Of a stretch of 64,000 nt of DNA, positions 1 through 16,992 are shown piece after piece; the stretch's first letter is position 1, and every line of letters begins with the position of its first letter. Made by a program: the position numbers and the translations under genes. This DNA is from Rhodocytophaga rosea (GTDB lineage: Bacteria > Bacteroidota > Bacteroidia > Cytophagales > 172606-1). The notes beneath the pieces are model-generated. The model saw only the letters and a list, made by a program, of their open reading frames with translations, made no database searches and had not been told where the DNA came from. The stretch spans positions 5,226,501-5,290,500 of the forward strand of contig NZ_CP048222.1 in NCBI RefSeq assembly GCF_010119975.1, in the 5' to 3' direction.

Positions 1-894
1 AATGAAATCACTTTTACAGTCACCGGCGAAGATAGAATCGATAATGAAGAGATCACGGTGGAGGCATTCGGAAGAGGGTTTAATTTAGCTGACGCCGGCA
101 TGCAATTTACCCCTGGTTCCGGGGTTGGCAAAGTCACTCTTCCGTTTACCTGGCAGCCGGATTGTAAACAGGTGATAGAAAATGCTACCTATACCGTAGA
201 TTTTGTTGTTAAAGACAAACGATGCCCTTTACAGCAAAAATCAGATACGGTTACTGTGAATCTGACTTTTGAAGCCAGAACTACCCGGCAACCGGAGGTA
301 GAAACAACATTGCCCGGGAATCATGCTAAACTGTTTACCCATCAGGAAATCCGTTTCGATGTGATGGCAACGGACCCTGATACCGATCCGATTGTTCTCA
401 GAGCGGTAGGAAGAGGCTTCGATTTAGAACAAGTAGGCATGCAGTTTAAAAATCCCAGTACCGGAAATGGAAAGATTACTGAGCCTTTTTACTGGAAACC
501 AACCTGCGAAAATACTCTTAGTGAGATAGGAACCTATATTATTGACTTTATTGTGGAAGACAACAGTTGTGCTGCCAATGGAGCTGATACGATTACTGTA
601 ACCCTCGAGTTATCGGACTTTGAAGTGGTATTCGACGGATTTGAGCCGCCTAATGTGTTCACTCCTAATGGCGATGGCAAAAATGATTCATTCTATATTC
701 CTAATTTACCGGCGGATAATTGTAAAGAATGGTTTGAACGGGTAGAAGTATATAACCGCTGGGGCAAATTAGTGTATGAGGGTGATAAGCGGGAGTTCAG
801 CTGGTCAGGCGTAGGATTCCCTACAGGTGTATATTATTATCTGATCTTTTATCACAACAGCCGTTATAAAGGAACTGTTTCGTTGCTGAGATAA
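1..894 (+). CDS. Secreted repeat protein with type IX secretion C-terminal sorting domain (5' partial)
   Basis: The reading frame is open from the first base of the window, so this is the C-terminal 297 residues of a longer protein. Two tandem Ig/cadherin-like repeats of about 110-130 residues are visible: both contain a GRGF-(N/D)L motif, then GMQF, then F(T/Y)W(Q/K)P(D/T)C, and end in a DTxTV strand. They are followed (from about residue 211) by a gliding-motility-type C-terminal domain with FTPNGDGKND, YNRWGKLVYEG and a FPTGVYYY segment. This is the type B sorting signal used by the type IX secretion system in Bacteroidota, so the protein should be exported to or through the outer membrane. 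A GTG at 58 is only an internal codon of this frame. Function beyond a surface or adhesin-like role is not visible. Confidence 0.9.
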   Translation, partial: NEITFTVTGEDRIDNEEITVEAFGRGFNLADAGMQFTPGSGVGKVTLPFTWQPDCKQVIENATYTVDFVVKDKRCPLQQKSDTVTVNLTFEARTTRQPEVETTLPGNHAKLFTHQEIRFDVMATDPDTDPIVLRAVGRGFDLEQVGMQFKNPSTGNGKITEPFYWKPTCENTLSEIGTYIIDFIVEDNSCAANGADTITVTLELSDFEVVFDGFEPPNVFTPNGDGKNDSFYIPNLPADNCKEWFERVEVYNRWGKLVYEGDKREFSWSGVGFPTGVYYYLIFYHNSRYKGTVSLLR

Positions 895-932
895 AGAATA
901 AGCCCCAACTTATAGATTGGGGCTTATTCTTT
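893..932. terminator. Bidirectional intrinsic terminator
   Basis: A perfect 16-bp inverted repeat (AAAGAATAAGCCCCAA at 893-908 and its complement at 917-932) encloses an 8-nt loop. The A-rich left arm and T-rich right arm let it work in both directions. It begins inside the stop codon of the sorting-domain gene and lies before the 3' end of the convergent M28 peptidase gene. Confidence 0.9.
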
Positions 933-974
933 ATAAACGCCTTAAAGTTTATTGTTATATCTAACCAATAATTC

Positions 975-2270
975 CTACTTCAACTCCGAAGCATTCACAC
1001 GGGTAGGAGTGTCTTTGCCACTGATGATACTTCTTGCACTTTGGGCAATGGCCTTAATGATCTGCGTCATATTGGCAATGTCGAGCGATTCATATTCATC
1101 ATCCACACTGTGATACAATTTATCAATGTCGATCTGGTCGGAAGAAATACTATGGGCTGGTACCCCTAACCTGGCAAGTGTTGCATTATCTGAACGGTAG
1201 AACAGATTTTGTTCCGGATAAGGGTCCGGGTGAAAGGTAAACTGGGTTCCCTGCAGGTTTTGCTGAAGTATTTTGCCAAAGTCGGTTTTTTCATAACCCG
1301 TAACCCAGGCTGTATTTGGCCCAAATTTAGAAGGTTTACCAATCATTTCCATATTAAACATAGCCACCACTTTATCTGGATTCAGTTGTTTGGAAAAATA
1401 CTGCGAACCATACCCTCCTACTTCTTCAGCAGTAAAAGCAACAAATATGAGCGTACGTCCTTTATTTTTTTGCTTTTTAAAGTAACTCGCCAGTGCTAGT
1501 ACAGCCGTTGTTCCGGAAGCATCATCGTCAGCCCCATTGGCAATGGAGTCTCCATTTACCGGTTTAAGAATCCCTATATGATCGTAATGGGCAGAAAAGA
1601 TCACCATTTCTTCTTTTTTGTCTTTGCCAGGAATCATGCCTACAACATTGCTTAATTTCAGTGTTTCTACCACATTACTGGCTTTTACCTGGAAAGAGGG
1701 ATTTTCTACCGGCGGAAACATGGCGAATACCAGCGAACCGTCACCTGCTTGTTCCAGGCTGATATTGCCTTTAGAGAAATAGTTTCTATACTGATTAAAT
1801 ATCTTTTGGTGGGTTTCGTCAATCAGAAGGAGTGTATTTTTCCTGGCTTTCATCAAATCGCTGGCTATCTGAGAAAAGCTATCTTCGGCCCGGACCAAAA
1901 TCACGTTTGCATCACTCGATTGCTGCCATTGTATCTGAGGTTGCCCGGTGATAACAAAAACTTTATCGGAGGTCACTGTTTGCCCGTTTACCTGTACAGT
2001 CGTTTCACCCGGTTTTACCCTATACACATTAAAAGTTTGCTTATAACCAGTAAGCCCATCCAGGGGTTTTAAACCAATCTTTTTAAATTCTTCTTCAATA
2101 AAATCAGCCGCTTTGTCTGCACCTGGTTCAAAAGATTTTCGTCCCTGCATGTCATCGGCCGACAGCGTTTTAATGATACGGTCTACATAGGCTTGTTCAA
2201 TCCCTGATTTTTGAGAGAAAACCGGTACACTTATCAACAGACAGCATATAAGCTGAATCAATTTTTTCAT
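975..2270 (-). CDS. Exported M28-family zinc metallopeptidase (aminopeptidase-like)
   Basis: The 431-residue protein starts with a hydrophobic signal peptide ending near VFSQK, so it is exported, probably to the periplasm. The middle (about 90-200) resembles a PA-like insert. The C-terminal half carries the M28 metal-site motifs: SAHYDHIG near 226, ADDDASGT near 245, TAEE near 281, an NMEMIG segment (Glu where many members have Asp) and YHSVDDE near the end. Members of this family cleave N-terminal amino acids or dipeptides using two zinc ions. It is convergent with the upstream secreted-protein gene and divergent from the ABC transporter gene. A second M28 gene of similar layout is found at 56593. 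The exact substrate cannot be read from the sequence. Confidence 0.88.
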   Translation of the reverse strand: MKKLIQLICCLLISVPVFSQKSGIEQAYVDRIIKTLSADDMQGRKSFEPGADKAADFIEEEFKKIGLKPLDGLTGYKQTFNVYRVKPGETTVQVNGQTVTSDKVFVITGQPQIQWQQSSDANVILVRAEDSFSQIASDLMKARKNTLLLIDETHQKIFNQYRNYFSKGNISLEQAGDGSLVFAMFPPVENPSFQVKASNVVETLKLSNVVGMIPGKDKKEEMVIFSAHYDHIGILKPVNGDSIANGADDDASGTTAVLALASYFKKQKNKGRTLIFVAFTAEEVGGYGSQYFSKQLNPDKVVAMFNMEMIGKPSKFGPNTAWVTGYEKTDFGKILQQNLQGTQFTFHPDPYPEQNLFYRSDNATLARLGVPAHSISSDQIDIDKLYHSVDDEYESLDIANMTQIIKAIAQSARSIISGKDTPTRVNASELK

Positions 2271-2430
2271 GAGTCTATAGTTTATTTTTTAGGAGAACAT
2301 TTGTATCGTCTGTTCCCTATTAAACGGTCAATTTAAAGATTTACCTCGAAACTTTATTAGCCGGATTCACATTATTATAGATAGCCTTTCTGGACAAACT
2401 TTACGAAGTAATTACTCCTGCAACCTGAGG

Positions 2431-4344
2431 ATGTCTGGAAACAGTAGGGCTTATTATCTTTTAAATACATTCATGGCTATATTATCAAGTGCTTCCAGCA
2501 ATGGAAGAAACAACCGTACTTCCAGAAATAATTCTGAAAACCCGCTCACTTTCAAACAACGGCTCAGCGCTTTACGCAATTTACCGGCATTCTTTAAACT
2601 GGTCTGGAAAACCAGTCCGCCTATGTTTATCGCCAATATTGTGCTTCGGGTGCTTAAGGCAGCTTTGCCGGTGATTATGCTCTATATTGGCAAACTGATC
2701 ATTGATGAAGTGATCGTACTTACCCAAACTGCCGGACCACATGAATTGACCACTTTGTGGAAATTGGTAGCTGCCGAATTCGGGCTTGCTTTCTTATCAG
2801 ATTCCCTAAGCCGGGCCGTTGCTTTACTCGACAGTTTGCTGGGCGATTTATTTGCCAATCAGACCTCTATTGAACTGATGGAACATGCGGCTACACTTGA
2901 CTTAGATCAGTTTGAGGATTCTATCTTTTACGACAAACTGGAAAGAGCCAGGCAACAAACCATCGGACGCACCATTCTGCTCTCGCAGGTATTGGGACAA
3001 GTACAGGATCTGATTACGATGGCTTTTCTGGGAGCAGGTCTGGTGGCATTTAACCCCTGGCTTATCTTATTATTAGTCATCGCGGTAGTACCTGCCTTTC
3101 TGGGAGAAGCTCATTTTAATGAGAAGAGTTATTCTCTGGTACATGGCTGGACACCTGAACGGCGAGAACTGGACTATTTACGCTATATTGGTGCCAGCGA
3201 CGAAACTGCCAAGGAAGTGAAAATATTCGGGCTTTCCGGATTTCTTACCGACCGTTACCGCATTCTCTCCGATAAGTATTACAAAGCAAACAAAGAACTG
3301 GCTGTAAAACGTGCCTCCTGGGGAAGTGTGTTCGCTGCGATTGGCAGTGCTGGCTATTACAGTGCATATGGGTTCATTATCTGGCAAACGGTAAATGGAA
3401 TGTTATCGGTAGGTACGCTTACCTTTCTGGCTGGTTCGTTCCGCCAGTTGAGATCCTTACTGGAAGGGGTACTCACCAGATTTTCAAGTGTGTCGCAAGG
3501 TGCTTTGTTTCTCAGCGATCTGTTCGACTTTTTTGAGATCAAGCCCAGAATTTATACGCCGCAAAAACCCCGTCCATTCCCACGCCCAATTAAGGAAGGA
3601 TTTGTATTTGAAAATGTAGGTTTTAAATACTTGAACTCCGAAAAATGGGCGAATCGCCACCTTTCATTTACTTTACATGCCGGGGAAAAGCTGGCATTGG
3701 TGGGCGAAAACGGAGCTGGAAAAACTACCTTAGTTAAATTACTGGCCCGCTTATATGATCCCTCCGAAGGCCGTATTCTGCTGGATGGCTATGACTTGCG
3801 GGAGTATGACCTGACTGAACTTCGCCAGGAGATTGGTGTGATTTTCCAGGATTTCGTTAAGTTTCAGATGAGTGCTTCCAGTAATATTGCCGTAGGACGG
3901 ATTGCCGAAAAGGAAAATAAAAATCGTATTGAAAATTCAGCACACCAAAGCCTAGCTGATACCGTGATTGAAAAGCTGCCAGGAAAATATGACCAGATTT
4001 TAGGAAAACGTTTTGCCAAAGGCGTAGAACTTTCGGGCGGTGAATGGCAGAAAGTAGCGCTCGGGCGTGCCTACATGCGGGATGCACAAGTATTAATTCT
4101 GGATGAACCTACGGCAGCTTTGGATGCCAGGGCAGAATATGAAGTATTCCAACGGTTTGCTGAACTGACGCATGGTAAAACGGCTGTACTTATTTCTCAC
4201 CGCTTTTCTACTGTCCGTATGGCCGACCGTATTTTGGTATTAGATAATGGCGAATTACATGAAATTGGAAGCCATGAGGAATTACTGGCGAATGATGGCC
4301 GGTATGCCGAACTTTTCCGCCTACAGGCAAGAGGCTATCAATAG
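2431..4344 (+). CDS. ABC transporter, fused permease and ATP-binding protein
   Basis: This is a half-transporter of 637 residues with an N-terminal type-1 exporter membrane domain (hydrophobic helices between about 60 and 340) and a C-terminal nucleotide-binding domain. The latter shows Walker A GENGAGKTT near 423, Q-loop IFQDF, signature LSGGEWQ near 534, Walker B VLILDEPTAALD near 553 and the H-loop ISHRFST near 588. It should act as a homodimer in the inner membrane exporting an unknown substrate. A second in-frame ATG at 2473 would give a 623-residue protein; the first 14 residues look unconserved, so the later start is possible. No membrane-fusion or outer-membrane partner gene is adjacent. 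Confidence 0.9.
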   Translation: MSGNSRAYYLLNTFMAILSSASSNGRNNRTSRNNSENPLTFKQRLSALRNLPAFFKLVWKTSPPMFIANIVLRVLKAALPVIMLYIGKLIIDEVIVLTQTAGPHELTTLWKLVAAEFGLAFLSDSLSRAVALLDSLLGDLFANQTSIELMEHAATLDLDQFEDSIFYDKLERARQQTIGRTILLSQVLGQVQDLITMAFLGAGLVAFNPWLILLLVIAVVPAFLGEAHFNEKSYSLVHGWTPERRELDYLRYIGASDETAKEVKIFGLSGFLTDRYRILSDKYYKANKELAVKRASWGSVFAAIGSAGYYSAYGFIIWQTVNGMLSVGTLTFLAGSFRQLRSLLEGVLTRFSSVSQGALFLSDLFDFFEIKPRIYTPQKPRPFPRPIKEGFVFENVGFKYLNSEKWANRHLSFTLHAGEKLALVGENGAGKTTLVKLLARLYDPSEGRILLDGYDLREYDLTELRQEIGVIFQDFVKFQMSASSNIAVGRIAEKENKNRIENSAHQSLADTVIEKLPGKYDQILGKRFAKGVELSGGEWQKVALGRAYMRDAQVLILDEPTAALDARAEYEVFQRFAELTHGKTAVLISHRFSTVRMADRILVLDNGELHEIGSHEELLANDGRYAELFRLQARGYQ

Positions 4345-4464
4345 AATATATAGAAGAAAGTGTATATCTAGACTACTATAAAACTTAAGCGGCTATACAG
4401 TAAATCATTTGGGCAGAGTTTGTATATTTCGGGAGATATGTATTTTTTATTCTCAACATAACTT

Positions 4465-5232
4465 ATGCCACCCAGACCTTATATTTTAGCCGAAACCAAC
4501 TGGAAAACAGTAAAAGACACTTCCTACCAGGTTGCTGTATTGCCCTGGGGCGCTACTGAAGCCCATAATTATCACCTTCCCTATGCGACTGATACCATTC
4601 AATGCGATTATGTAGCCGCCGAATCTGCCCGGATTGCCTGGGAACAAGGAACCAAAGTAATTGTATTACCTACTATTCCTTTCGGCGTGAATACCGGCCA
4701 GTTAGACATCAAGCTCGATATTAATATGAATCCCAGTACGCAGGCTGCTGTGATGCATGATGTATTAGAGGTGCTAGCCAGGCAGCAGATCAACAAAATT
4801 GTGATGATGAACGGGCATGGCGGAAACGATTTCCGGCAGATGATCCGGGAATTGCAAGCTAAGTTTCAAACTACATTTATTTGTACGCTGAACTGGTATA
4901 AAGCTGTTAACTGGAACAAGTATTTTAACGACCCTGGCGACCATGCTGGGGCGATGGAAACCAGTGCCATTATGCACATTGCCCCAGATCTGGTACTTGA
5001 CTTGTCGGAGGCTGGAGATGGAGCTGCTAAAAAATTTAAGCTCAACGGATTTAAAGAAGGCTGGGTATGGGCACAACGGGAATGGAGCAAAGTCACCAAA
5101 GATACCGGTGTAGGAGACCCTGCCGAATCCACTCCCGAAAAAGGAAAAGCCTATCTGGAGGCTACCGTTGCCAATATCGCTAAATTCTATACCGAACTCG
5201 CCAACTGCCCGATTGAGGATTTGTATGAATAG
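4465..5232 (+). CDS. Creatininase-family amidohydrolase
   Basis: The 255-residue protein matches the creatininase fold family throughout. Metal-site motifs are visible: WGATEAH (28-34) with a following ATD, the NGHGGN signature at about 116-121, and AMETS near 164. The family includes creatinine amidohydrolase, the riboflavin/F420 enzyme ArfB, MftE peptidase and FAPy deformylase-like proteins, all opening an amide or N-formyl bond with a divalent metal centre. No cofactor or creatine pathway gene is nearby, so the substrate is unassigned. There is no signal peptide, so it should be cytoplasmic. The gene stands alone, 120 bp after the ABC transporter. Confidence 0.88.
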   Translation: MPPRPYILAETNWKTVKDTSYQVAVLPWGATEAHNYHLPYATDTIQCDYVAAESARIAWEQGTKVIVLPTIPFGVNTGQLDIKLDINMNPSTQAAVMHDVLEVLARQQINKIVMMNGHGGNDFRQMIRELQAKFQTTFICTLNWYKAVNWNKYFNDPGDHAGAMETSAIMHIAPDLVLDLSEAGDGAAKKFKLNGFKEGWVWAQREWSKVTKDTGVGDPAESTPEKGKAYLEATVANIAKFYTELANCPIEDLYE

Positions 5233-5428
5233 TGATTATGAGCTTTACTTTTTTGTTTTAAAGTATTTATATATTACTGAAAACCTATATTGGTTGGGAA
5301 TTGATTGTTTTGCATTAAATAGTATGGAATAGATATAGAGAATAATTATGCCAGTAAACGTAATCTTCATAAATTCTACTTAGAAAAGGATTTTATTACC
5401 TAGTATAATATACCGGCTTTTTAGATAA

Positions 5429-6487
5429 GTGATGAAAGCTGTCAGGTATATATTTGTCCTTATGAGATCCTTTTTTACATCTGTATTACTTTTTCTTTCT
5501 ATATCAGCATTTTCTCAACAAGTAAAAGTATTAGGAAGAATTGTTGATGCCAAAACCGATAAGCCAGTAAAAGATGCATCTATCATAGTAGAGCAAACTA
5601 CACATACAATAGTTTCAAATCCTCTTGGTTATTTTGAGCTTATTGAACAACTACCTGTAAAAATTACAGTTTCTCATGTTGGATATGTAACTTCATCTGT
5701 GGAGCTAACAGTGGATAACCCCAAGGTTAAGATAAAGATTGAACCTGTTTTACATTCTTTAGAGGATTTATCTATTAAAGGGCAAGTATTTCTTACAGAA
5801 TTTGTTTACAATCAGGCCGCTTATGACTCCCTCATACACTATAGGCAGCAACCGGCAAATACTACAACCTATGCAATGGCCGAACATCAATGCGCTTTTC
5901 CGGGCGATATGGCGGCATTTCGTAATTATGTAGCCAACCAACTATTAAAAAAGAAAGATGATCTTACCGAAGCGTTTGCTTCTACTGTTTTATTTACAGT
6001 AATGCCTGAAGGTACTATTTCTGTAGATTCAATTAGTGGAGTGAAAGAAAATGTGGTCCAACTTATTAGACAAACATTTGTTGCAAGCCCTAAATGGGTG
6101 CCTGCTTTTCAGGGAAACAACAAAGTAGCTATGCGTCTCATGCAAAGTATAAAGTATGATCCTACAGTGGAGATTTTTCAAAAACTTGATATTGGACCAG
6201 AATACACAGGTGGCTGGGCTGAGTTTTATGATCTTGTAGGAAAGAACTTGAAATTTCCATCACAAGCTAGGAAAGCAAAAGTTAATGGTAAAGTGTTTGT
6301 ACAATTTGTGATAAATGAGTCGGGAGAATTAGAGGATATTCAAATACTCAAAGGTCTTGGGTATGGATGCGATGAAGAGGTAATACGGGTGATTAAATTG
6401 TCCTCTGGTAAATGGATACCAGGTAAACTGAATAATAAATCAGCAAAAGCTAGAGTAAGTGTACCAGTGCAGTTTAAAACCGGTTGA
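5429..6487 (+). CDS. Carboxypeptidase-regulatory-like/TonB C-terminal domain protein
   Basis: The protein has up to 352 residues (an alternative start at 5462 gives MRSFF...). A signal or anchor segment ends near AFSQQ. Residues about 34-110 form a carboxypeptidase-regulatory-like beta domain (VLGRIVDAKTDKPVKDASI), as found at the front of TonB-dependent receptors. Residues about 259-352 are a TonB C-terminal domain (KVFVQFVINESG, GCDEEVIRV, W.PGK). The stretch at about 148-243 shows the same spacing of elements (FPGDMAAFRNYV, VLFTVMPEGTISV, ASPKWVPAFQ) and looks like a second, degenerate copy. The usual proline-rich spacer of a TonB is missing. It may be an envelope adaptor rather than a true energy transducer. 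It is a lone gene with about 195 bp of AT-rich DNA upstream in which no clear signal was seen. Confidence 0.75.
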   Translation: MMKAVRYIFVLMRSFFTSVLLFLSISAFSQQVKVLGRIVDAKTDKPVKDASIIVEQTTHTIVSNPLGYFELIEQLPVKITVSHVGYVTSSVELTVDNPKVKIKIEPVLHSLEDLSIKGQVFLTEFVYNQAAYDSLIHYRQQPANTTTYAMAEHQCAFPGDMAAFRNYVANQLLKKKDDLTEAFASTVLFTVMPEGTISVDSISGVKENVVQLIRQTFVASPKWVPAFQGNNKVAMRLMQSIKYDPTVEIFQKLDIGPEYTGGWAEFYDLVGKNLKFPSQARKAKVNGKVFVQFVINESGELEDIQILKGLGYGCDEEVIRVIKLSSGKWIPGKLNNKSAKARVSVPVQFKTG

Positions 6488-11187: not shown

Positions 11188-11550
11188 ATAGTAAATCGTT
11201 ATTTGGTTGGTCGTTGTCTGTAGAATTATGTAAAATAACAGATGGCTATATATAAATATAAATAAGCTGCAGAACGAATTAATCCGGTATTTGCAATTCC
11301 CCCTATATCGAAAAGTGTATTGATTTCTTTAGCTAACGAGGATAAATTTAGCTGTCCTAAGTAAGACCGATTTTTGCCTGGTGCTTACAGCCCGTTTGCA
11401 ATTCTGGTCAGAAATGTAAAAGCCCTTCTGCTCCAACAGAAAGGCTTTGAGATGATTTCAGTGGAGGAGCCAAGAGCTACCCCGGTCAGAATATTTTCAA
11501 TCTAAAAATACATTTCCTTAGGACTTTTTCAACCCTTATATCTAAAGAAC
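11188..11550. other. Gene-free stretch upstream of the IS110 transposase
   Basis: No open frame of note lies in these 363 bp. The first half (to about 11340) is AT-rich and probably host intergenic DNA following the phosphoesterase gene, with no clear terminator. The second half contains several nested inverted repeats and is best read as the non-coding left end of the insertion sequence; see the separate RNA entry. Confidence 0.5.
11361..11492 (+). ncRNA. Candidate IS110 bridge (guide) RNA
   Basis: Members of the IS110 family encode in a non-coding end an RNA that pairs with donor and target DNA. Here the left end can fold into three parts. One is GTAAGACC (11361-11368) with GGTGCTTAC (11380-11388, one bulge). 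A 12-bp hairpin follows, AAAGCCCTTCTG (11419-11430) with CAGAAAGGCTTT (11437-11448), one mismatch and a 6-nt loop. An enclosing 9-bp helix pairs ATTCTGGTC (11401-11409) with GGTCAGAAT (11484-11492). The structure and position fit a bridge RNA; the exact 5' and 3' ends and the guide loops are not established. Confidence 0.5.
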
Positions 11551-12906
11551 ATGAAAAAGAAATCCTTATCTATGGAAGTAGTGAATCCCGATGCAGCCGG
11601 CATTGATGTGGGTAGCCGCTCGCACTATGTGGCCATCGGCCAAAAACCGGGAGATGTCCGTGAGTTTGGTGTCTACAATGAGGATCTGCTAGAGTTACTT
11701 AAATGGCTGCAAGAAAACAACATTACCACGGTAGCTATGGAATCAACAGGTACGTATTGGCAAAGTTTGTTTGCTACTTTACAGGCAGCAGGCTTGGAAG
11801 TGTATCTGTGCAATGGAAAATTCACTAAAAACATCAAAGGCAGAAAAACCGATGTACAGGATTGCCAGTGGATACAGAAGTTGCACAGCCTTGGATTGCT
11901 CACAAGCAGTTTTCTGCCTGACTTGGCAACAGAACAATTACGCACTTATTGTAGACACCGCACTTCACTGCTTGAAACCTCAGCCATGACTACCCTAAAG
12001 ATGCAAAAGTACCTGCGTCTACTCAACTTAAGGTTAGATGTGGTAGTAAGTGATGTCTGTGGACTGACAGGGTTAGCTATCATCGAAGCTATATGCAAAG
12101 GAGAAACCAATCCTACAGTATTAGCTTCCTTGCGTCATGGCAACTGCCGAAAATCAGCAGAAGAAATAGCCAAAGCTTTGCAGAGTAATGGTAGAAAAGA
12201 TTACCTGTTTGGTTTACAACAAGAGTTTGATCTGTATAAAATCTTGCAGGCCAAGATTGAAGCCTGTGATGTAGCCATAGCAAAACTGCTTACCGAGCAG
12301 ATCAATCAAGATCAGACAAAGAAAGCATTACAGGCAGAAGCCAAGCCGCACAAAAAGGTAAATAAAAATGCACCCAAACATATGGACCTTAATCAAGTAG
12401 CTTACCAGTATTTCGACGGAGTGGATCTGATGGGTATTGAAGGGGTGAGCCATGGGACAGTGATTGCCTTGATGAGTGAAGTAGGTAGTGAAGGGATCAA
12501 AAAGTTTGCAACCGCTAAACAATTTGCTTCCTGGCTCAGGCTTACTCCCAACACGAGAATCAGCGGAGGCAAGGTGATAAGTAAGCGCATAGCCAAAGGA
12601 AGTAACCGCTTAAAGATTGCTCTCAGGCAAGCAGCAAATGCGGTTGGCAATCTCAAAGACACCCACCTGTCGGATTTTTTCAATCGAATTAGTTATAGAA
12701 GGGGCAGAACAGCGGCTGTTTCTGCTACAGCGCGTAAGCTAGCAGTCATCATCTGGAATATGATAGTCAAGCATGTGCCTTATAATCCGCCCAGTCAGTA
12801 TCTGTTTATGGATCAAAAAAGAAAGATGAAGCTGGTCAAGAAGATCCGAAACAAGATTGCTAAATTAGACCTCAAGCCACAAGATGTAGGCTTTTCCATG
12901 AACTAA
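11551..12906 (+). CDS. IS110-family transposase (DEDD recombinase)
   Basis: The protein has 451 residues. The N-terminal RuvC-like DEDD domain shows the first Asp in AGIDVG (D19), Glu in AMESTG near 64, and the Asp pair in RKTDVQDCQW near 100. A central helical region (about 170-280) precedes the C-terminal transposase-20 domain (about 290-400), where MGIEGVSHGT and LRLTPNTRISGGK, with the serine proposed to be catalytic, are visible. These enzymes use an RNA guide to insert a circular intermediate at specific targets. Length and domain order are normal, with no frameshift. It lies between a phosphoesterase gene and marC and appears to have landed in an intergenic region without breaking a gene. 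Confidence 0.93.
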   Translation: MKKKSLSMEVVNPDAAGIDVGSRSHYVAIGQKPGDVREFGVYNEDLLELLKWLQENNITTVAMESTGTYWQSLFATLQAAGLEVYLCNGKFTKNIKGRKTDVQDCQWIQKLHSLGLLTSSFLPDLATEQLRTYCRHRTSLLETSAMTTLKMQKYLRLLNLRLDVVVSDVCGLTGLAIIEAICKGETNPTVLASLRHGNCRKSAEEIAKALQSNGRKDYLFGLQQEFDLYKILQAKIEACDVAIAKLLTEQINQDQTKKALQAEAKPHKKVNKNAPKHMDLNQVAYQYFDGVDLMGIEGVSHGTVIALMSEVGSEGIKKFATAKQFASWLRLTPNTRISGGKVISKRIAKGSNRLKIALRQAANAVGNLKDTHLSDFFNRISYRRGRTAAVSATARKLAVIIWNMIVKHVPYNPPSQYLFMDQKRKMKLVKKIRNKIAKLDLKPQDVGFSMN

Positions 12907-12998
12907 AATCAGTATCAGGCATGGACGTTAGTCAGAATCAAATAAATACTCATTATTCTATTTTATTATCTTTTTGCTCACTACATATTACTCCATAC

Positions 12999-13834: not shown

Positions 13835-13920
13835 GGGGCGATACCAGAGTGGCCAAATGGGGCAGACTGTAAATCTGCTGACTTATGTCTTCGGTGGTTC
13901 GAATCCATCTCGCCCCACCA
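13835..13920 (+). tRNA. tRNA-Tyr (GTA)
   Basis: The acceptor stem GGGGCGA pairs with TCGCCCC. The anticodon loop reads CTGTAAA with anticodon GTA. A long variable arm, as expected for tRNA-Tyr, lies before the TTCGAAT T-loop. The 3' CCA is encoded (13918-13920), unlike in the other tRNAs of this cluster. Confidence 0.96.
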
Positions 13921-13993
13921 AAAGACGATTAAGTGAATGAGGGAGTATTAAATCTCTTATTTCTAAAACTTAATCAATCATTGATAAATATAA

Positions 13994-14066
13994 GCGGGAG
14001 TAGCTCATTTGGTAGAGCGATAGCCTTCCAAGCTATAGGTGGCGGGTTCGAGCCCCGTCTCCCGCT
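13994..14066 (+). tRNA. tRNA-Gly (TCC)
   Basis: The 73-nt cloverleaf has acceptor GCGGGAG paired to CTCCCGC. The D-arm contains TTGGTAGAGC and the T-arm GGTTCGAGCCCC. The anticodon loop CTTCCAA gives TCC, reading GGA codons. CCA is not encoded. It lies 73 bp after tRNA-Tyr and is presumably co-transcribed. Confidence 0.96.
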
Positions 14067-14072
14067 CATTGC

Positions 14073-14133
14073 TAGCAGTTAGTTATTTGTTATTAGCTTC
14101 TAAACAGTAGCTATGACTTATAGCTAACTGCTA
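14073..14133 (+). repeat. Inverted repeat in the tRNA-Gly/tRNA-Thr spacer
   Basis: TAGCAGTTAG (14073-14082) is perfectly complementary to CTAACTGCTA (14124-14133). In the precursor transcript it would form a stem-loop just between the two tRNAs. It may aid processing, or be a copy of a small intergenic repeat; other copies were not seen in this window. Confidence 0.5.
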
Positions 14134-14146
14134 AAAGCTTACAAAA

Positions 14147-14218
14147 GCCGACGTAGCTCAGGGGTAGAGTACTTCCTTGGTAAGGAAGGGGTCGTGGGTT
14201 CAATTCCCATCGTTGGCT
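14147..14218 (+). tRNA. tRNA-Thr (GGT)
   Basis: The 72-nt cloverleaf has acceptor GCCGACG pairing with CGTTGGC (one G-T). The anticodon stem CTTCC/GGAAG encloses loop TTGGTAA, giving anticodon GGT for ACC/ACT codons. CCA is not encoded. It lies 82 bp before tuf. Confidence 0.96.
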
Positions 14219-14300
14219 CTTCTAAAGAAAGCCTTTAATTGAATAATTTAAACTAAATTTCTAAACTTCAACAATTTAACTAAACAGAGGATTTTCAAAT

Positions 14301-15488
14301 ATGGCTAAAGAAAATTTTGACCGTTCCAAACCTCACGTGAATATTGGTACTATCGGTCACGTTGACCACGGTAAAACTACTCTGACTGCTGCAATCACTA
14401 AAGTATTATCTGAGAAAGGCTTGGCAGAAAAGAGAGATTTCTCTCAGATTGATAATGCACCTGAAGAAAGAGAAAGAGGTATTACGATCAATACTTCTCA
14501 CGTAGAATATTCTACTGTAAACCGCCACTATGCACACGTTGATTGCCCTGGCCACGCTGACTATGTTAAAAACATGGTTACTGGTGCTGCGCAAATGGAT
14601 GGTGCTATCCTGGTAGTAGCTGCTACAGATGGTCCAATGCCTCAAACCCGCGAACATATTCTGTTAGCCCGTCAGGTAGGTGTACCTCAACTGGTTGTAT
14701 TCATGAACAAAGTGGATATGGTAGATGATCCCGAATTATTAGAGCTGGTAGAAATGGAAATCCGTGAACTATTGAGCTTCTATGAATTTGATGGTGATAA
14801 TATTCCGGTAATCCAGGGTTCTGCCTTGGGCGCATTAAATGGTGAGCCAAAATGGGTAAAAACAGTAGAAGCGTTAATGGAAGCAGTAGATAGCTGGATT
14901 CCAATACCAAAACGTTTGACTGATCTGCCTTTCCTGATGCCTGTTGAAGACGTATTCTCAATCACTGGCCGGGGTACTGTTGCCACCGGAAGAATTGAAA
15001 GAGGTATTGTTAACTCTGGCGAGCCTGTAGAAATCCTGGGTATGGGTGCTGAAAACCTTAAATCTACTGTTACTGGTGTGGAAATGTTCCGCAAAATCCT
15101 TGACAGAGGTGAAGCTGGTGACAACGTAGGATTATTGTTACGTGGTATTGAAAAAGAAAGTATCCGCCGGGGTATGGTTATCTGTAAGCCTAATTCAGTA
15201 AAACCTCACTCAGAATTTAAAGCTGAAGTGTACGTGTTATCAAAAGAAGAAGGAGGCCGTCATACGCCATTCTTTAATAAATACCGTCCACAGTTCTATC
15301 TGAGAACTACTGACGTAACCGGAGAAATCCAGTTACCAGCTGATATTGAAATGGTAATGCCTGGTGACAACGTAACTATCACTGTGAAGTTGATCAACCC
15401 GGTTGCCATGGAAAAAGGTCTGCGTTTCGCTATCCGTGAAGGTGGTAGAACCGTAGGTGCTGGTCAGGTTACTGAAATCTTAAAATAA
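14301..15488 (+). CDS. tuf: Elongation factor Tu
   Basis: The 395-residue GTPase delivers aminoacyl-tRNA to the ribosome. G1 GHVDHGKT (19-26), the switch region [15 protein letters not shown]3 DCPGH (81-85) and G4 NKVD (136-139) are all present, followed by the two beta-barrel domains. Length is normal for the family. It is last in a tRNA-Tyr-Gly-Thr-tuf transcription unit driven from the promoter at 13743 and is closed by a terminator at 15502. It is the only tuf copy in this window and does not sit with fusA, as is usual in this phylum. Confidence 0.98.
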
Positions 15489-15501
15489 ACAGCTCTTTTA
15501 C

Positions 15502-15534
15502 AATGCGTTCCTGAATTTTTTTAAGGAACGCATT
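15502..15534 (+). terminator. Intrinsic terminator after tuf
   Basis: AATGCGTTCC (15502-15511) and GGAACGCATT (15525-15534) form a perfect 10-bp stem with a T-rich loop. Its last bases coincide with the TTTG box of the next promoter (15533-15536), so the two signals share DNA. Confidence 0.8.
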
Positions 15535-15564
15535 TGTGTTATATATTATTTTCATTACCTTTGC
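15533..15564 (+). promoter_or_regulatory. Bacteroidota promoter for tRNA-Trp-secE-nusG-rplK operon
   Basis: TTTG (15533-15536), 19 bp, then TACCTTTGC (15556-15564) match the phylum consensus. It lies 25 bp before tRNA-Trp and should drive the long unit from tRNA-Trp to at least rplL, perhaps through rpoC. Confidence 0.8.
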
Positions 15565-15588
15565 AGTCCTTTTTGAGGGACTGCCTTT

Positions 15589-15660
15589 ACGGGTGTAGCT
15601 CAATGGTAGAGTAGCGGTCTCCAAAACCGTTGGCTGGGAGTTCGAGTCTCTCCACCCGTG
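15589..15660 (+). tRNA. tRNA-Trp (CCA)
   Basis: The acceptor ACGGGTG pairs with CACCCGT, and the anticodon loop CTCCAAA gives CCA. The T-arm contains GAGTTCGAGTCTC. The 72-nt tRNA ends in discriminator G and has no encoded CCA. It lies 23 bp before secE, a conserved arrangement. Confidence 0.96.
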
Positions 15661-15683
15661 CTCAGCGCAAGATTAATATAATC

Positions 15684-15875
15684 ATGGAAAAATTAACAGC
15701 TTTTTTGAAAGATTCTGTAGAAGAAATCAGAACCAAAGTATCCTGGCCTAAATTCAGTGAATTACAGAGCAGTTCTACGTTGGTGTTGGTAGCTTCTCTT
15801 ATTTTTGCGCTTCTGGTAGGAGTAATCGATTTTGGTTTTCAAAATGCCATGGATTGGTTCTACAGTTCTTTTTAA
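15684..15875 (+). CDS. secE: Preprotein translocase subunit SecE
   Basis: This 63-residue single-span protein clamps SecY in the inner membrane. The KVSWPKFSEL motif (about 18-27) is the SecE signature, followed by one hydrophobic helix (TLVLVASLIFALLVGVI). The start is ATG 15684; an earlier in-frame start at 15630 would lie inside tRNA-Trp and is wrong. It is followed 25 bp later by nusG. Confidence 0.95.
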   Translation: MEKLTAFLKDSVEEIRTKVSWPKFSELQSSSTLVLVASLIFALLVGVIDFGFQNAMDWFYSSF

Positions 15876-15900
15876 TTAACAAAATAATCATACTTATCTG

Positions 15901-16464
15901 ATGAGTGAGTTAAAGTGGTATGTAATTAGAGCTGTTGCCGGGCAGGAGAAAAAAATAAAGACCTATCTGGAAAACGAAATCACCCGGCAGAGTCTGGCTG
16001 ATCAAATTCCTCAAATTATTATCCCGTCAGAAAAAGTATACGAGATCAGAAACGGTAAAAAGAGAGTCAGGGATAAAACTACTTTGCCCGGCTATATTAT
16101 TATCTCCGCTGATCTGACGAATGGTGAAGTATCGCACGTAATTACGAGTATTCCGGGTGTAATTGGTTTTCTGGGTTCTGATACAGGCCAGGGTGCAGCA
16201 GCTAAAATACCTGTTCCTTTACGCCAGTCAGAAATAAACCGGATTCTGGGCAAAATTGATGAAGCCCAGGAACAAGGCGAAAAGCTGGAAACTCCATTTA
16301 TTGTGGGAGAAAGTGTGATGGTAATGGATGGTCCGTTTAAAACTTTCAAAGGTACGGTAGAGGAGATTTTTGAAGAGCGGAAAAAACTGAAAGTAATGGT
16401 AAAGATTTTCGGCCGCAATACGCCAGTTGAATTGAGTTACATGGAAGTTCAAAAACAAGAATAA
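15901..16464 (+). CDS. nusG: Transcription termination/antitermination factor NusG
   Basis: The 187-residue protein has an N-terminal NGN domain starting [17 protein letters not shown], with [12 protein letters not shown] near 61 and PGVIGFLG near 80, and a C-terminal KOW domain ([19 protein letters not shown], about 140-158). It binds the RNA polymerase clamp and couples transcription to Rho or to ribosomal protein S10. The region between the domains (about 95-135) is a little longer than in E. coli, as is usual in Bacteroidota. It lies between secE and rplK in the conserved order. Confidence 0.96.
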
Positions 16465-16548
16465 TTGCATGATTTATACAGGCTATGCTTAATGCTTGCT
16501 TCCCATATCCTGTCGTAGAAAGTGCACAATTAAATAAATCTAAAAGCA

Positions 16549-16992
16549 ATGGCTAAAGAAGTAACCGGATATTTAAAATTACAGGTAAAAGGAGGAGCCG
16601 CTAATCCGTCGCCACCTATCGGACCTGCCTTGGGTAGCAAGGGCTTAAATATCATGGAGTTCTGCAAACAATTTAATGCAAGAACCCAGGATAAAGCAGG
16701 ACAGGTATTGCCCGTACTGATCACCTACTATAATGATAAGTCGTTTGACTTTGTCATCAAAACTCCCCCGGCTCCGGTATTGATTCTGGAAGCGGCTAAG
16801 GTAAAAAGTGGTTCAGCAGAGCCAAATCGTAACAAAGTGGGTTCCATTAGCTGGGACCAGGTAAAGCAGATTGCCACTACCAAAATGCCTGACCTGAATG
16901 CATTTGAACTTGATTCTGCTATGAAAATGGTAGCAGGAACAGCCAGAAGCATGGGAGTTAATGTAACCGGAAAAGCTCCTTGGGAAAGTTAA
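16549..16992 (+). CDS. rplK: 50S ribosomal protein L11
   Basis: The 147-residue protein carries the proline-rich N-terminal loop [10 protein letters not shown] that contacts the thiostrepton region of 23S rRNA, and the C-terminal RNA-binding domain ending [10 protein letters not shown]. Together with L10/L12 it forms the GTPase-associated stalk base. It is followed 12 bp later by rplA. The 84-bp leader before it could carry the L1 autoregulatory site, but I could not identify that fold with confidence. Confidence 0.97.

Follow-up and report, generated by a model that had tools for sequence, protein, structure and literature searches.

A candidate guide-RNA gene in the left end of an IS110-family element of Rhodocytophaga rosea

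Introduction

In the IS110 group of insertion sequences, the RNA lies in the left end of the element and the right end is short (excerpted text of PMC11208160). The same excerpts describe for IS621 that the 5′ arm of each RNA loop pairs with the bottom strand and the 3′ arm with the top strand. IS1111-type seekRNAs come from downstream of the transposase gene, and in those of ISEc11, ISKpn4, ISPst6, and ISPa11 the top-strand complement precedes the bottom-strand match; ISKpn4 and ISPst6 target attC sites, and the subterminal inverted repeats of the IS1111 group are 7–17 bp long (excerpted text of PMC11187229).

The DNA analyzed here, a stretch of 64,000 nucleotides from Rhodocytophaga rosea (hereafter, the window), contains an IS110-family element. 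Its left end is very likely the gene of a bridge/seeker-type RNA that would guide the DEDD recombinase to excise and insert the element. The predicted length of ~171 nt is similar to that of the IS621 bridge RNA.

Judged by its sequence, the element departs from both described groups, IS110 and IS1111, in several respects. The features shared with IS621 and the IS110 group, as excerpted, are an RNA upstream of the transposase gene, one target loop and one donor loop, a DEDD recombinase, and a short right end, here with 30 bp of non-coding DNA. Unlike in IS621, for which the published guide order was used (PMC11208160, in excerpt), the bottom-strand guides of the window RNA, i.e., the left-target guide (LTG) and the left-donor guide (LDG), are on 3′ arms and the right-target guide (RTG) is on a 5′ arm; RTG precedes LTG, so that the target loop has its bottom- and top-strand guides in the reverse order. 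The donor 5′ arm also differs from that of IS621, as excerpted, in matching an internal left-end site in the same sense, and the recombinase is a protein of ~450 aa with 22% identity. With a top-strand complement located 5′ of the bottom-strand match, the target loop is like that of the excerpted IS1111-type seekRNAs, assuming that strand naming there follows the IS orientation, and a short subterminal inverted repeat may also be shared, here of 6 bp and far inside the left end. Unlike in IS1111, again as excerpted, the RNA is upstream and not downstream of the transposase gene, and the IS1111-family transposase of IS4321 is 25% identical to that of the window. Some copies appear to insert at attC sites, as the IS1111-attC group reportedly does at those of integrons, on the word of Tetu & Holmes in 2008 and Post & Hall in 2009, but the RNA is at the other end of the element. 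The first-pass annotation, which had placed the locus in a guide-RNA-encoding IS110 subgroup, was right about the position of the RNA; the target-guide order is that of the IS1111-type seekRNAs (PMC11187229, in excerpt).

The element and its transposase

The transposase gene was intact, as had been annotated (Table 1). Both its N-terminal DEDD domain (PF01548) and its C-terminal Transposase_20 domain (PF02371) were matched, and the NF033542 score was 223.4 bits against a cut-off of 140. The IS621 residues D, E, D, D, and S, which are catalytic, have aligned counterparts in the window protein. In an unrooted FastTree phylogeny of 21 proteins, IS621, IS4321, and ISAtu7 were placed together behind a branch of support 0.98, apart from the ~450-aa clade of the window, a placement that is provisional because one named IS1111-group protein and few references were included. 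A second class-wide transposase search returned the same matches as the first; at the order level, 8 genomes yielded nothing new and 248 genomes yielded four new loci. No relative of the element was found in a scan of viral contigs.

The genome (8.98 Mb, one contig) holds a second IS copy, with the identity running over window positions 11292–12942, and three further sister copies at 78% identity. Reading frames were full in the identical copy and two sisters and broken in the third sister (L009). The ends were fixed by comparison: the borders of the five own-genome copies were mapped by alignment and, together with the relatives, gave a common register in which an 11-nt left flank of CGTTR plus further bases is followed by AT[T/C]C of the element. 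At the other border, CGTTAGTCAGA is followed by A and then by the right flank; the base A is common to 11296 and 12937. The left end at 11296, upstream of position 11500, agrees with the annotation of this region as the left end of an IS110 element. The subterminal inverted repeat consists of CTAACG (11333–11338) and CGTTAG (12926–12931), and the exceptions to GCTAACG in the left-end (LE) alignment were GGTAACG in L054 and CCTAACG in L045. An octamer, GTCAGAAT, annotated in both flanks as a possible mark of the ends, is present at 11485–11492 and 12931–12938. It does not mark the two ends of one element: the latter occurrence is the right end itself, and the former is the donor guide in the RNA.

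No empty site for the window copy was found in the one relative tried, in which the surroundings on the left side are not conserved. An ordinary cluster (window 13835–16992) lies some 1 kb downstream of the element; in it, four tRNA genes surround an EF-Tu-like ORF (14301–15488); beyond this ORF, frames resembling SecE, NusG, and ribosomal protein L11 were seen by eye.

Table 1. Positions of the features of the element in the window
Feature	Position	Strand	Basis or remark
Whole IS element	11296..12936	+	1641 bp; identical second copy and three 78%-identical sisters in the genome
IS110-family DEDD recombinase, 451 aa	11551..12906	+	PF01548, PF02371, NF033542
Left target flank (LT) CGGTATTTGCA	11285..11295	+	copy comparison; CGTTRNNNNNN in most other copies
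Right end CGTTAGTCAGA (left donor)	12926..12936	+	copy comparison
Internal left-end site TGATTTC	11321..11327	+	same letters in the RNA at 11453–11459
GCTAACG, left end	11332..11338	+	GCTAACG in 22/24 LE alignment rows
−7 box TAAATTTAG, presumed Bacteroidetes-type promoter for the RNA	11343..11351	+	TAnnTT[TGA] match
Predicted bridge/seeker-type guide RNA, ~171 nt	11354..11524	+	conserved fold, covariance model R1
Outer helix	11354–11361:11517–11524	+	conserved fold, extended by hand
Target-loop helix	11365–11369:11405–11409	+	conserved fold; encloses a short inner hairpin
RTG core, 5′ arm of target loop	11373..11376	+	antisense to right flank
LTG TTGCAATT, 3′ arm of target loop	11396..11403	+	same sense as left junction
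Long-range helix closing the donor loop	11411–11417:11510–11516	+	conserved fold
Donor-loop (loop 2) 5′ arm TGATTTC	11453..11459	+	same sense as LE 11321–11327
Hairpin between donor-loop arms	11462..11484 (11462–11471:11475–11484)	+	helix 5: 97.1% of cells paired, 6/9 pairs with double changes
LDG TCAGAAT, 3′ arm of donor loop	11486..11492	+	same sense as right end 12932–12938

Conserved fold of the left end

The region 11341–11550, annotated as a structured non-coding left end, ranked above 199 of its 200 dinucleotide shuffles in folding (z −2.9). The fold was derived from an alignment, over window positions 11348–11530, of the window with 31 relatives, 32 sequences in all and 31 of them distinct. 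RNAalifold, with the alignment as the sole input, returned the outer helix, the target-loop helix with an inner hairpin, the long-range helix, and the hairpin between the donor-loop arms. The fold that was scored is this output after manual extension of the outer helix and removal of one stray pair. Comparison of the sequences supports it as conserved: 92.3% of 1012 cells were paired (75.8% when shuffled), and double changes were found at 25 of 33 pairs (shuffled, 17.6) and in 200 cells (shuffled, 64.6). When the partners were slid by 1–3 columns, pairing fell to 35.5–48.0%.

Covariance modelling, which the first-pass annotation had suggested for the left end, found compensatory pairing in the 32 aligned sequences, in a fold that differs from the one proposed there. 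The enclosing 9-bp helix (11401–11409:11484–11492) was not borne out, with 78.5% of cells paired vs. 79.2% in shuffled alignments and a covariation score as in shuffles; its strands overlap guide segments. The upstream hairpin (11361–11388) fared no better, with 59.4% vs. 56.8% over the five outer pairs scored. The 12-bp hairpin (11419–11448) exists, with double changes at 11 of 11 pairs, but each pair is gapped in 10–18 of the 31 distinct rows; by the alignment, it is real but optional.

The covariance model built from the 32 sequences, R1, gave 154.9 bits on the window, a member of its training set. An Rfam gathering search of the window returned four tRNAs and no RNA family at 11354–11524. 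The −7 promoter consensus of Bacteroidetes is TAnnTT[TGA], and 27 of 32 rows have this motif directly before the outer helix, vs. 0–3 rows at six control offsets and a mean of 5.9 in shuffles. Given the box just upstream of the outer helix and the conserved fold, the predicted RNA probably has its 5′ end near 11353 and its 3′ end in the T-run that follows 11524.

Guide segments and the DNA that they match

Columns of the RNA were scanned in both orientations against four stretches of DNA (right end, left end, left junction, and right flank), with permuted partners as the reference. The set comprised 21–25 elements, from which L046, L061, and L038 had been removed as near-duplicates. The best diagonals, as summed z, were LDG/right end (22.9), loop-2 5′ arm/LE (13.8, same sense, LE columns 27–33), LTG/left junction (12.2), and antisense RTG/right flank (10.1); the best antisense LE diagonal reached 9.1, at LE columns 15–19 and in a gappy part of the RNA. 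The comparison of guide loops with donor ends and targets, also suggested in the first-pass annotation, thus showed RNA segments that covary with the right end, the left junction, and the right flank. The per-element permutations below were run without the near-duplicates L046 and L061 and ignore relatedness.

For the first five LDG positions, TCAGA (11486–11490), agreement was 1.000 with the own right end vs. 0.694 with others (n = 26, 10 variants, 0/5000 permutations). All five positions equalled the own right end in 26 of 26 elements, in two of which (L058, L059) the right end had been located with a pattern containing guide letters. Changes of the right end were matched in the RNA across separate lineages: TCAGT in the own-genome sisters, TCAGG in Pontibacter, TTATA in L027, TTAGA in L033, TTGGA in L034, and TCAAC in L045, as well as in the distant L039, L040, and L042. 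For LTG (columns 56–59), agreement was partial, 0.739 own vs. 0.534 other (n = 22, 0/5000 permutations), and for the RNA/DNA base at +3 it was 1.000 vs. 0.481 (n = 22, 0/5000 permutations). RTG (columns 27–33) has the weakest support among the guides, 0.532 vs. 0.353 (n = 24, 0/5000).

Unexpectedly, the loop-2 5′ arm is a same-sense copy of the internal left-end site (+26 to +32 in the window). Agreement of RNA columns 123–129 with LE columns 27–33 was 0.942 own vs. 0.698 other (n = 22, 11 variants, 0/5000). By eye, L087 has the match too, L100 and L037 have it with other letters, and the L029 mini-element lacks it. The distance from this site to the inverted CGTTAG box of the left end is about the same as that from RTG to the target CGTT box, and our guess would be that the donor loop reads a half-site from the inverted box.

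Run over 390 genomes of the class, R1 matched 30 times in 17 genomes, with training elements accounting for many of the matches. Of the RNAs available beyond those used for training, at least 22 in all, 11 were examined for guides. The others included the decayed L101, three with a disrupted RNA (L094, L102, and L105), and the distant L064, L066, L076, L077, L110 (two), and L111. In seven of the seven testable RNAs, LDG matched 5/5 at a GTT+7 site downstream; 12–34 GTT sites were scanned per RNA, so that a 5/5 match has a chance of ~1–3% each, and two of the seven (L088, L098) are 95% identical copies. This count is without L099, which ends inside the transposase gene, L107, which ends at the RNA, and L104 and L095, with no parsed LDG. 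The variants TCGAG, TCACA, ATACA, and ATGGA were among these outside LDGs and were not seen in the training rows. Eight LTGs were read (without the misparsed L093 and L099 and with none parsed in L104), of which six matched their own upstream stretch at 9 or 10 of 10 positions; those of L087 and L100 matched at 7 of 10, no better than foreign guides. Different guides fitted their own flanks in L029, L037, L088, L098, L107, and L095, and the differing LTGs of three RNAs of one genome fitted at 10 (L088), 9 (L098), and 10 (L107) of 10. By eye, LDG of the decayed L101 matched at 4/5, and a guide/right-end match was seen in L064/L066 and L077 with the register chosen afterwards.

Targets

Left junctions beyond the own genome were found by a CGTT/ATTC pattern and right ends by a GTTA pattern, so the counts of these motifs are biased: CGTT at −11 to −8 was present in 24 of 27 left flanks (L053, a duplicate of L033, left out). 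Among the own-genome copies, with alignment-mapped borders, CGTT was exact in three of five, and the window copy is at CGGT, not CGTT. By these sequences, most targets have CGTTR 7 nt before the junction, and some appear to be in attC-like sites.

Upstream flanks folded with a mean z of −1.08 (3/27 below −3), vs. 0.01 for downstream controls (1/21 below −3) and 0.01 for controls further upstream (0/24); they thus fold better on average, not in every case. The copy in L062 (Pontibacter plasmid, 1–6320) lies in an array of small ORFs that are separated by attC-like inverted repeats and preceded by a tyrosine recombinase; this recombinase resembles integron-integrase models, below all their cut-offs. 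The identical copy, c2, has a flank that looks attC-like by eye. Given the L062 array, the c2 flank, the average upstream folding, and the window copy at CGGT, attC-like sites appear to be one kind of target and not the sole kind. The integron integrase model matched tyrosine recombinases in the own genome, none over the cut-off, and was uninformative since 13 of 14 control genomes also matched.

RNA-only relatives

Three relatives consist of a left end, the RNA, and a right end, without a transposase gene: L087 (369 bp, reverse complement 1427–1795), L037:1124–1456 (333 bp), and L029:2296–2625 (330 bp). The latter two belong to different genera, and each has as its first base the one that follows the right end, TCAGA, of a sibling IS; this sibling is complete in L029 and cut by the contig end in L037. 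Their LTG is ATCAGA, vs. GTCAGA in the sibling right end. In L088 and L098, a right end matching LDG lies within 200 nt of the RNA with no transposase there, and the shared repeat extends past the right end. L104 is an RNA copy with no transposase gene found in the locus; the L107 and L095 loci end at the RNA, and the sequence beyond is outside these loci. In the genomes G103 and G350 (62% complete), IS110 pieces below the curated cut-off were found and no intact helper was seen. A search of a library of papers for IS110 as "non-autonomous" with "bridge RNA" found nothing, and the terms "non-autonomous", "satellite", and "tandem" are absent from the excerpted text of PMC11208160.

Discussion

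The proposal in the first-pass annotation that the IS110 left end encodes a bridge-type guide RNA is supported by the left end at 11296, the compensatory pairing, and the covariation with the right end, left junction, and right flank. It is because segments of the RNA track these parts of its own element and surroundings that we assign it to the bridge/seeker type. In the mechanism that we infer, the left end would be transcribed from its own promoter into an RNA of ~171 nt with two internal loops. The target loop would carry RTG on its 5′ arm, antisense to the right flank, and LTG on its 3′ arm, for the left junction; in the donor loop, LDG on the 3′ arm would read the right end, and the 5′ arm would act through its match to the internal left-end site. 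The DEDD recombinase would form a complex with this RNA, the guides would base-pair as recombination proceeds, and the element would be excised and placed 7 nt downstream of a CGTTR box, sometimes at integron attC-like sites.

A structured left end could instead be a cis regulator, acting either in the transposase mRNA, as a leader or attenuator, or in the DNA, as a hairpin bound by the transposase. The left end does fold and directly precedes the transposase gene, and the internal left-end site overlaps the TTG of a presumed −33 box, so some of the matches could be regulatory. Regulation of translation does not, however, predict that loop segments should covary letter by letter with the host flank and with a right end located over 1.3 kb from them, nor is it in keeping with an RNA retained in elements that have no transposase gene, and we regard such a regulator as very improbable. 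We give even less credence to the matches being remnants of an ancestral end-sequence duplication, maintained by gene conversion. Three matched segments (left junction, internal LE, right end) are indeed colinear in the RNA and the element, but the right-flank match is antisense, the left match takes in host sequence outside the element, and copies with the same RNA are found at different targets, which means that flanks are not copied into the RNA on insertion.

It is also unlikely, if less so than either of these, that the element is a plain IS110 member of the IS621 type with a standard bridge RNA, the arms of which were misassigned here. The left-end RNA and short right end are as in the IS110 group (PMC11208160, in excerpt). 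Against this, the bottom-strand guides are on the 3′ arms of loops supported by covariation, vs. the 5′ arms in IS621 (same excerpt), the transposase is as distant from that of IS621 as stated above, and R1 had no match in the IS621 locus (L109) up to E = 10.

Beyond the guide-RNA reading itself, we tentatively suggest, with the chances slightly against it, a third bridge-RNA architecture, in which a left-end RNA is combined with an IS1111-type guide order and a donor loop reading both element ends in the same sense. Derived RNA-only elements (330–369 bp) would be moved by the recombinase of a helper, and some, with the target guide rewritten to the right end of the helper, would be satellites immediately behind it. 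Bridge RNAs are the basis of new programmable recombinases, and the present clade is far from IS621, with a guide order that mixes IS110 and IS1111 features. As the target guide has apparently been rewritten several times in nature, the rules of reprogramming could be read from sequence and tested. The RNA-only relatives would show that guide and enzyme are separable in nature, as is needed in tools where the recombinase is provided in trans.

The RNA type seems to extend beyond Bacteroidota, as suggested by weaker R1 matches (22–44 bits) located directly upstream of genes for transposases of 446–464 aa in Citrobacter, Aeromonas, Nostoc, and Emticicia plasmids. R1 had no match in the loci of ISAtu7 (L118) and the distant transposases L112–L114 up to E = 10, and a 50-kb piece of R751 that contains two IS4321 copies was likewise without a match, up to E = 1. 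In the Nostoc plasmid locus (L110), RNAs were found at 472–627 and 2109–2271, one upstream and one downstream of the transposase gene; with an apparent transposase tail seen by eye further upstream, this arrangement looks like a tandem insertion.
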